Of a stretch of DNA of 33,891 nucleotides, positions 1 to 33,891 are shown in pieces. The stretch lies in assembly GCA_903856295.1 (NCBI GenBank), contig CAIOBP010000029.1, positions 1 through 33,891 of the forward strand, read 5' to 3'. Source of the stretch: an uncultured Rhodospirillales bacterium (lineage in GTDB: Bacteria > Pseudomonadota > Alphaproteobacteria > Azospirillales > Azospirillaceae). The translations under genes and the position numbers were made by a program. The notes under the pieces were generated by a model. The model saw nothing but the letters and a program-made list of their open reading frames with translations. It was not told the DNA's origin and did no database searches. Numbering within the stretch: the stretch's first letter is position 1; each line of letters starts with the position of its first letter.

Positions 1-1
1 G

Positions 2-121
2 GGCATCAACAGCTTGGTCCAGGCAGCCAAGGCCAAGGCACGGGGATACCGCTCTACCCGCAACCTGGCCGCGATAATCTACCTCGTCGCCGGAAAGCTA
101 GAACTCAAGCTACCCACGTGA
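2..121 (+). pseudogene. ISL3-family transposase, C-terminal fragment cut by the window edge
   Basis: The first frame reads 39 residues and then a TGA stop. The residues, with an RGYR.TRN core followed by a hydrophobic LAAIIYLVAGKL segment, are the typical end of ISL3-family DDE transposases. The start of the gene lies outside the window, so it cannot be said whether the element is intact. The sequence just after the stop looks like the inner side of the element's terminal inverted repeat. Family assignment rests on my recognition of the tail only. Confidence 0.7.
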
Positions 122-135
122 AACAGCGAAGAGCC
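111..135 (+). repeat. Probable right terminal inverted repeat of the ISL3-type element
   Basis: The segment ends in GAAGAGCC, whose reverse complement GGCTCTTC is the usual tip of ISL3-family inverted repeats. It overlaps the transposase stop codon, as is common in this family. The left copy is outside the window, so the end point is inferred. If it is right, the 8-bp target duplication would be AAAAAGCG at 136-143. Confidence 0.5.
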
Positions 136-171
136 AAAAAGCGCATTACCGATCTACTCTGGCTGTGGATC

Positions 172-31352: not shown

Positions 31353-33014
31353 ATGCTCGTCTCCCTGATCATCCGCGATGTCGTGCTGATCGAGCGCCTG
31401 ACCTTGGCCTTCCGGCCCGGATTGGGAGTTCTGACCGGCGAGACCGGCGCCGGCAAATCGATTCTGCTCGACGCGCTCGGGTTGGCGCTGGGCGCGCGCG
31501 GCGACAGCGGCCTAGTGCGGCGCGGCTGCGATCAGGCGGCGGTGACCGCCGAGTTTCAGCTGGCCGATAGCCATCCGGTGTTCGGACTGCTGCGCGAACA
31601 GGGGCTGGATAGCGCCGACACCCTGACCCTGCGCCGGGTGATCGGCGCCGATGGCCGCTCCCGCGCCTTCGTCAACGATCAGCCGATCGGGGTGACGCTG
31701 CTGCGCCGTCTCGGCGAGGAGCTGGTCGAGGTCCACGGCCAGTTCGACACGCACGGCCTGCTGGATCCCCGCACCCATGGCGGCGTGCTCGACGCCTATG
31801 GCGGGCTGGAAACCGCCGCCGCCCAGGTCGGAGCGGCATGGCGGGCATGGCGGCAGATCGAACAGGCGCGCGCCCAGGCCGCGACCGATGCCGGCCGCGC
31901 CCGTGCCGAGGAGGAGTGGCTGCGCCATGCCGTGGCCGAACTCGACCAACTGGCCCCCCAGCCCGGCGAGGAATCGGCGCTGGCCGAGACCCGCGCCGTG
32001 CTGATGCACCGGGAAAAGCTGATGGAGGCGATCAACGCCGCCTATGCCGATCTCGGCGGCGAGCGCGGCGCCGAACGGGCGGTGGCCGCCGCCCTGCGTC
32101 AACTGTCCCGCGCCGCCGACCGGGCCGGCGGCCGGCTCGATGGCGTGATCGCGGCGCTCGACCGCGCCGGGGCCGAGCTGTCGGAGGGAGTGTCGCTGCT
32201 GCGCGCGGTGTCCAGCGACCTGGAAATCGATGGCGGCAATCTCGAGACCACCGAGGAGCGCCTGTTCGCGCTGCGCGCCGCCGGGCGCAAGCATTCGGTC
32301 GAGGTCGACCGCTTGGCGGCATTGCGCGAGGAGCTGGCCCAGCGGCTGGCGCTGATCGAGGATCAGGGCGACACCCTGACCCGCCTCGCCCGTGAATCCG
32401 CACTGGCTCGCACCGGCTATCTTGAGACGGCGAAGGCCCTCGGCGCCCGGCGCCGGGAAGCGGCCGGGAGGCTGGACGCGGCGGTGGCCCGCGAACTGCC
32501 GCCCCTGAAACTGGACCGCGCCCGCTTCGTCACCAATCTCGAGCAGGTGGCCGAGGGCGACTGGGGCGCCGCCGGCATCGATCGCGTGAGTTTTCTGATC
32601 GCCACCAATCCCGGGGCGCCGCCGGGACCGCTCAACAAGATCGCCTCGGGCGGCGAGCTGGCGCGCTTCATGCTCGCGCTCAAGGTCGTGCTGGCCCGCA
32701 CCGGCAGCGTGCCGAGCCTGATTTTCGACGAAGTCGACGCCGGCATCGGCGGCGCGGTGGCGGCGGCGGTCGGCGAGCGGCTGGAACGGCTGGGGCGCGA
32801 GGTTCAGGTGCTGGTGGTCACCCACAGCCCCCAGGTCGCGGCCCGGGGCGACACCCACTTCCAGGTGCGCAAGCGCCTCAAGGGCGAGGCCGTAGCCACC
32901 GATGTGGTCGAACTCGACGGCGGCGAACGGTGCGAGGAAATCGCCCGCATGCTCTCAGGAGCCCACATCACCCCGGAAGCACGGGCGGCGGCGGCGGCGC
33001 TGATCAAGAAATAG
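31353..33014 (+). CDS. recN: DNA repair ATPase RecN
   Basis: RecN is an SMC-like ATPase acting in recombinational repair of double-strand breaks. The 553-residue protein has Walker A GETGAGKS at 29-36, a central coiled-coil region, the ABC signature in [14 protein letters not shown], and Walker [14 protein letters not shown] near the C-terminus. Length and order are normal. The pairing with bamD is common in alphaproteobacteria. Its last 11 nt overlap the end of the convergent queC. I saw no LexA box in the 24-bp gap before it. Confidence 0.95.
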
Positions 33015-33648
33015 ACGTACGCCTGTACGTGTGCCAGCCGGACATGCGGAGCGTACAGGCGGGGCAGGCGCCGCAGCCATAGCCCCAATCGTGGAGTTCC
33101 GAGCGGTCGCCCTGGTAGCAGCTGTGGGTTTCGACGCGGATCAGCTCGACCAGCGCCGAGCCGCCCAGGGTTTCGGCGAGGCGCCAGCTCGCCGCCTTGT
33201 CCAGCCACATCAGCGGCGTCTCGATGGCGAAGCGGCGGTCCATGCCAAGATTGAGCGCCAGTTGCATCGCCTTGACGGTGTCGTCGCGGCAGTCGGGATA
33301 GCCGGAGTAATCGGTCTCGCACATGCCGCCGATCAGCCGTCCGAGTCCGCGCTGATAGGCCAGAATCGCTGCGAAGGTCAGGAACACCAGATTGCGGCCG
33401 GGCACGAAGGTGGTCGGCAATTCCCCGGCCGGCGTCTCGATCTCGGTGTCGCGGGTCAGGGCCGACGGGCTGACGGCGTGGAGCGCCGCGAGGTCGCAGA
33501 CGTGATCCACGCCCAGCCGCCGCGTCCAGTCCGACCGCAGCCCGGCCATCCGCTCAAGCACCCGCAGCCGGCAGGCCATCTCGACGGCATGGCGCTGGCC
33601 ATACTCGAAGCCCACGGTTTCCACATGCTCGAAGCGCTCCAGCGCCCA
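33004..33648 (-). pseudogene. queC: 7-cyano-7-deazaguanine synthase QueC, N-terminus lost
   Basis: QueC makes preQ0, a queuosine precursor, using ATP. The remaining 214 residues start at the [20 protein letters not shown] segment and run to the end, including the zinc site C-G-A-C-P-A-C with an earlier cysteine in [10 protein letters not shown]. The expected first 20 or so residues, including the ATP-binding SGGxDS PP-loop, are missing. Upstream of about 33648 the DNA is part of an IS630-type transposase on the other strand. The open frame continues across the junction, but the added residues are unrelated. The enzyme should be inactive unless another copy exists. Confidence 0.85.
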
Positions 33649-33649
33649 G

Positions 33650-33891
33650 CCGTGCGCCAACACCGCCAGCATGAACCGCCATCTGGAGGAGATCGCGCTC
33701 CGCATCACGCCCGGCGCCCACGCGATCATCCTACTAGATGGCGCCGGCTGGCACATCGCCAAGGACCTAAAAATTCCTGAGAACATAACCCTGTTCCCAA
33801 TCCCGCCATACTCCCCGGAACTGAACCCGGTCGAAAATATATGGCAATATCTGCGCCAGAACAAATTAGCAATACAGGTCTGGGACGATTA
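33650..33891 (+). pseudogene. IS630-family transposase fragment, cut at both ends
   Basis: The frame reads [16 protein letters not shown] and continues to the window edge. It includes the catalytic aspartate in L-L-D-G-A-G-W-H and the catalytic glutamate in N-P-V-E-N-I-W, the DDE core of IS630-family transposases. The first half of the gene is missing at the queC junction, with no terminal repeat there, so this is not a simple insertion. The fragment is richer in AT-ending codons (ATA, CTA, AAA) than its neighbours, as expected of foreign DNA. Confidence 0.85.

Follow-up and report, generated by a model that had tools for sequence, protein, structure and literature searches.

The window, the whole stretch of 33,891 nucleotides that was analysed, is one complete contig (C29) of a draft genome of 255 contigs and 4.02 Mb, with 98.97% completeness and 0.6% contamination. 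At its right-hand end the top strand carries a gene with SMC_N and AAA Pfam matches (31353–33014), which we take from this domain make-up to be recN. Convergent with it, on the bottom strand, lies a remnant of queC (33004–33648), identified by its match to PF06508, by identity to congeners and by alignment. At 33648/33649 queC gives way bluntly to the 3′ part of an IS630-family transposase gene on the top strand (33649–33891), which is cut by the contig end. The original prediction had QueC homology stopping at about 33648 and an IS630-type transposase starting there on the opposite strand. The former was borne out to about one base, by the PF06508 match from profile position 17 and by DNA blocks aligned with congeners, and the latter by partial matches to DDE_3 and to the NCBIfam IS630 model.

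The queC remnant encodes the C-terminal 214 residues and the stop codon, and its frame is open. It scored 189.5 bits against PF06508 (cut-off 22; profile positions 17–209 of 210) and 168.2 bits against TIGR00364, exceeding the cut-off of 150.3; the score against NF008317, 185.3 bits, was below that model's cut-off of 378. All seven intact relatives aligned read LVLFSGGQDS and then CLAWAL, and the remnant starts at WAL. In the QueC of G003, a genome of the same genus, 23 residues precede the W of this motif. Lost from the remnant are about 23 N-terminal residues, SGGQDS included, together with the queC start codon. SGGxDS is the PP-loop, the ATP-binding loop of this enzyme class. As had been proposed, it belongs to the lost part: it is absent from the 286-aa ORF that holds the remnant, and all seven intact relatives have it. 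Set beside QueC (7-cyano-7-deazaguanine synthase) structures 3bl5 and 2pg3, the remnant keeps the C-terminal 211 aligned residues and the cysteine-rich C-terminus, but differs in that the first 23 or so residues with SGGQDS are gone and no start codon is present within queC sequence. When the intact G003 protein was used as query, 3bl5 aligned with it in the N-terminal part, the conserved motifs and the cysteine cluster. The remnant retains this C-terminal cluster, presumably the Zn site, in alignment with the relatives. Judged from these features the remnant would not be expected to catalyse the ATP-dependent formation of preQ0 from CDG.

Full-length QueC was found in all four other genomes of the genus (G001, G002, G003 and G004), to which the remnant is 73–80% identical in amino acid sequence. 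Overall it was matched in 16 of 39 genomes searched (its own and 38 relatives), namely its own, the four congeners and 11 others, some of the latter matches being weak. The order recN–queC is also seen in G001 and G004, indicating that the queC side of the junction is at its ancestral place. The genes upstream of queC are, as we recognise them from translations, SCO1-like and TPR genes in G001, G002 and G004 (L047, L048 and L049); in G003 (L046) the upstream gene is instead a presumed acyl-CoA synthetase-like one.

Over 211 aligned codons the remnant contains neither a stop nor a frameshift. Its pN/pS was 0.22 against G003 and 0.33–0.38 against the other three congeners, and the six pairs of intact congeners gave 0.19–0.37. 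Against three more distant relatives its pN/pS (0.54–0.56) was the maximum for the genus, the intact congeners giving 0.38–0.51; pN itself was 0.25–0.26 for the remnant and 0.23–0.27 for the intact congeners, and the higher ratio is due to a lower, near-saturated pS and is thus not read as decay. Leaving the junction column aside, we counted changes confined to one sequence at columns that are otherwise invariant: there are four in the remnant (one of them turns the D of GFDYGQRH into E), 0–8 in intact sequences and 1–3 in intact sequences of the same genus. The open frame and a pN/pS near that of intact congeners imply that the break is recent, or is not fixed, or is an artefact that does not involve a repeat. 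So healthy a frame speaks for a truncation of very recent date, for the presence of both alleles in the population, or for an artefact.

The transposase fragment scored 49.5 bits against DDE_3 (Pfam cut-off 28.6), a partial match over profile positions 60–133 of 146, and 72.7 bits against the NCBIfam IS630 model, below the cut-off of 100, over positions 204–277 of 299. The claim that the transposase lacks its first part was thus upheld, the left part of the gene and the left end of the element being missing. Relatives occur in 46 of 82 genomes of the family, this one included. Of 72,556 plasmid records 433 have a relative, and ISAli3 of Azospirillum is one of these. To ISAli3 (Azospirillum lipoferum) and to IS630 elements of Roseomonas and Sinorhizobium plasmids the fragment corresponds as the C-terminal part of DDE_3, with 57.5–63.3% identity over 78–79 residues. 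In two multi-copy IS630 relatives (from G022 and G020) the block common to the copies is 1,170–1,176 bp long and has the ends ATACCAA...TTGGTAT. When the fragment was read on from the window into C85, a contig of the same genome, the transposase frame met an in-frame TGA and ended, and the right end TTGGTAT, as in the relatives, followed at C85:6473–6467. The statement that the element lacks any terminal repeat holds within the window, but not beyond it. This right end is followed by CA and not TA. About 364 of some 1,170 bp of the element remain, 102 bp in C29 before the overlap of the two contigs and 262 bp in C85; a complete IS630 element, with two inverted ends flanked by TA, was not found, the left end being absent. 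The fragment differs from ISAli3 and the other relatives in that the left two thirds are gone, the frame contains TGA and CA stands in place of TA. By these features it is a decayed relic whose right end lies outside the window.

We compared the junction base by base with intact queC and IS630 copies. Aligned DNA blocks with intact queC stop at 33648 for G001, G003 and G004; those of G002 and the more distant G010 reach 33652, agreeing at 33649, 33651 and 33652 and not at 33650. The agreement at 33649 makes one further queC base possible, and microhomology at the junction amounts to 0–1 bp, as judged from relatives of this queC and this IS copy. The longest words common to 60 bases of one side and the comparison sequences of the other side were 8–13 bp. 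The junction is within the transposase gene; some 364 bp separate it from the right end of the element, and a canonical IS630 end, looked for at this point, is not there. A match across the junction in contig C170 of a congener proved to be another IS630 relic, which does not continue into queC. Searched as an exact 28-mer, the junction gave no match in the viral_contigs collection, which says little.

The junction lies 243 bases from the contig end. The last 141 bases of the window (33751–33891) are an exact copy of the end of C85 (6588–6728). When overlap lengths of 100–399 were scanned for this pair, 141 alone fitted, and the pair showed the exact suffix–prefix overlap expected of de Bruijn-graph contig ends with k = 141. 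The genome was also searched with eight contig-end probes, and 40 of 151 candidate matches were scored, so that the counts are lower bounds. Eight of the 40 were the probes themselves and 32 lay elsewhere; these 32 came from three of the probes, and the other five had none among those scored. All 32 non-self matches spanned 136–142 query bases, and identity of 100% never extended above 141; 15 of them started no more than four bases from a contig start, and 17 were on the minus strand. Since no identical end overlap above 141 was seen among the scored matches of this assembly either, C29 stops at a graph branch, which sits at 33751–33891, 102 bases past the junction. The overlap suggests that C29 truly continues into C85. 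Beyond the IS630 relic C85 holds genes which, from their translations, we take to be of a copper-handling type.

The COBRA paper (PMC10914622) describes MEGAHIT contigs as having ends of the largest k in common, and quotes MEGAHIT k-lists in which the smallest k is 21 and one of which ends in 141. The paper on a stratified-lake dataset (PMC8121793), to which the window probably belongs, describes reads assembled by MEGAHIT with default settings. The words of 8–13 bp common to the two sides of the junction are shorter than this smallest k and thus too short to fuse assembler paths. A search of the genome for the 102 bases at 33649–33750 gave no second copy identical to them; besides C29 itself and C85, which matches from 33751 onwards only, the DNA matches were other IS630 copies on C130 (71%, from 33705) and C140 (75%, from 33724). 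An identical intact copy in the bin would be expected to have branched the graph nearer the junction.

Repeated ends were seen at the far side of both contigs. Window positions 1–141 encode the C-terminus of an ISL3-like transposase (ISAtc1-like, 64% over 39 residues), a name that rests on plasmid matches; this start is common to at least 20 other contigs of the genome, which points to a high-copy element at which the assembly breaks. At its other end (1–141) C85 has a second repeated sequence, common to at least ten other contigs, and its 35-residue translation matches unannotated places on Azospirillum and Halomonas plasmids. HMM searches with both short transposase pieces gave no match.

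A search for a second QueC in this assembly found none. The one candidate, a match on C108 to the QueC profile with 20.4 bits (cut-off 22), proved to be MnmA, another enzyme of the PP-loop type. The genome was also searched with the first 44 residues of G003 QueC at E values up to 10, and the remnant alone was returned. As no 5′ piece of queC was found elsewhere in a bin of this completeness, no competing intact allele has been binned. With the SCO1-like protein of G001 as query the displaced upstream region of queC was not recovered in the genome; the two matches, 47–48% identical, were on C97 and C85, and C97 has only the SCO1 match in common with queC loci (three of the five compared).

The other queuosine genes named in the original prediction, queD, queE and queF, were all found. 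C211 carries queE next to queD, C229 carries tgt and queF, and none of the four contains internal stops. QueE and Tgt scored above the NCBIfam cut-offs; the QueD stretch was above the PF01242 cut-off and, with 66.6, below that of TIGR03367 (89.25), and the QueF stretch of 77 residues was above the Pfam cut-off with no NCBIfam match. When seven genomes were set against each other, G003 and G020 gave no match to the PTPS/QueD family and G020 none to the queE model, so the queuosine pathway is patchy in the family anyway. In G003 QueC, QueE, QueF and Tgt were found with no PTPS/QueD-family match, reflecting either sequence missing from the draft or a true loss.

These observations could be explained in several ways. 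Probably queC was really cut, and recently, by an illegitimate deletion or rearrangement that fused it, at about codon 24, to the middle of the decayed IS630 relic. Such an event would have removed the start codon and the PP-loop of the synthase; the junction would be present in the DNA of the cell, and active QueC would not be made. Homology switches within one base, and other IS or repeat ends are many in the genome, as the starts of C29 and C85 demonstrate. Genes truncated by IS-associated deletions are known in IS-rich genomes, where a partial gene is likewise bluntly joined to a partial IS; there is nothing distinctive here, and for a repeat-rich draft genome the truncation is of an ordinary kind. 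It counts against a deletion that a long-dead gene should show decay, whereas the remnant is open, that the junction is only 243 bases from a contig end, where a branch whose third path was not seen leads to the next contig, and that the evidence is that of an assembly. Open queE, queD, queF and tgt also fit an intact queC missed by the assembly. Of the two readings offered originally, a deletion between an IS630 copy and queC is the better: the blunt join, the decayed partial IS and the search of the assembly, which found neither a second QueC nor a queC start, support it in outline, the abolition of preQ0 synthesis that was attached to it being a probable consequence. An assembly chimeric at a repeat found no support, given 0–1 bp at the join, the shortness of the common words and a branch that lies elsewhere.

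It is unlikely that the population is a mixture of strains with intact and truncated queC alleles of which the assembler kept the truncated path here. The open frame of the remnant with its near-normal pN/pS and the open state of the other pathway genes would agree with this, and the contig end at 33751–33891 would imply some alternative path, but no queC start was found in the bin and the branch is 102 bases beyond the junction rather than at it. MEGAHIT by default discards k-mers seen once, and this, together with the absence of a common word of usable length, makes it quite improbable that chimeric fragments from the library or the assembly, with no repeat involved, joined queC to an IS630 relic lying elsewhere. 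The true continuation of queC would in that case have to be lost from the bin altogether, even if the closeness of the junction to the contig end, the bluntness of the join and the open remaining pathway genes are what such a chimera would give. Transposition of IS630 into queC with an element end at the junction is hardly credible: IS630 sequence does adjoin queC, but two multi-copy relatives are 1,170–1,176 bp long with ATACCAA...TTGGTAT ends and the junction is within the transposase gene, which refutes an insertion unless the element was truncated afterwards.

The locus is chiefly a caution about inferring gene loss close to the end of a contig, here within its final few hundred bases, in a draft genome. 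If the deletion is real, it adds another recent case in which a single step towards the queuosine precursor was lost. Possibly, although we advance this tentatively, a free-living alphaproteobacterium is here just switching from making preQ0 to an outside supply, with queC freshly deleted via an IS relic, queE–queD and tgt–queF intact, and queC kept by the four other sampled members of the genus. A paper on E. coli (PMC5372724) describes YhhQ as a transporter of preQ0. A real deletion would predict dependence on imported preQ0 or preQ1, or else tRNA that stays without queuosine.
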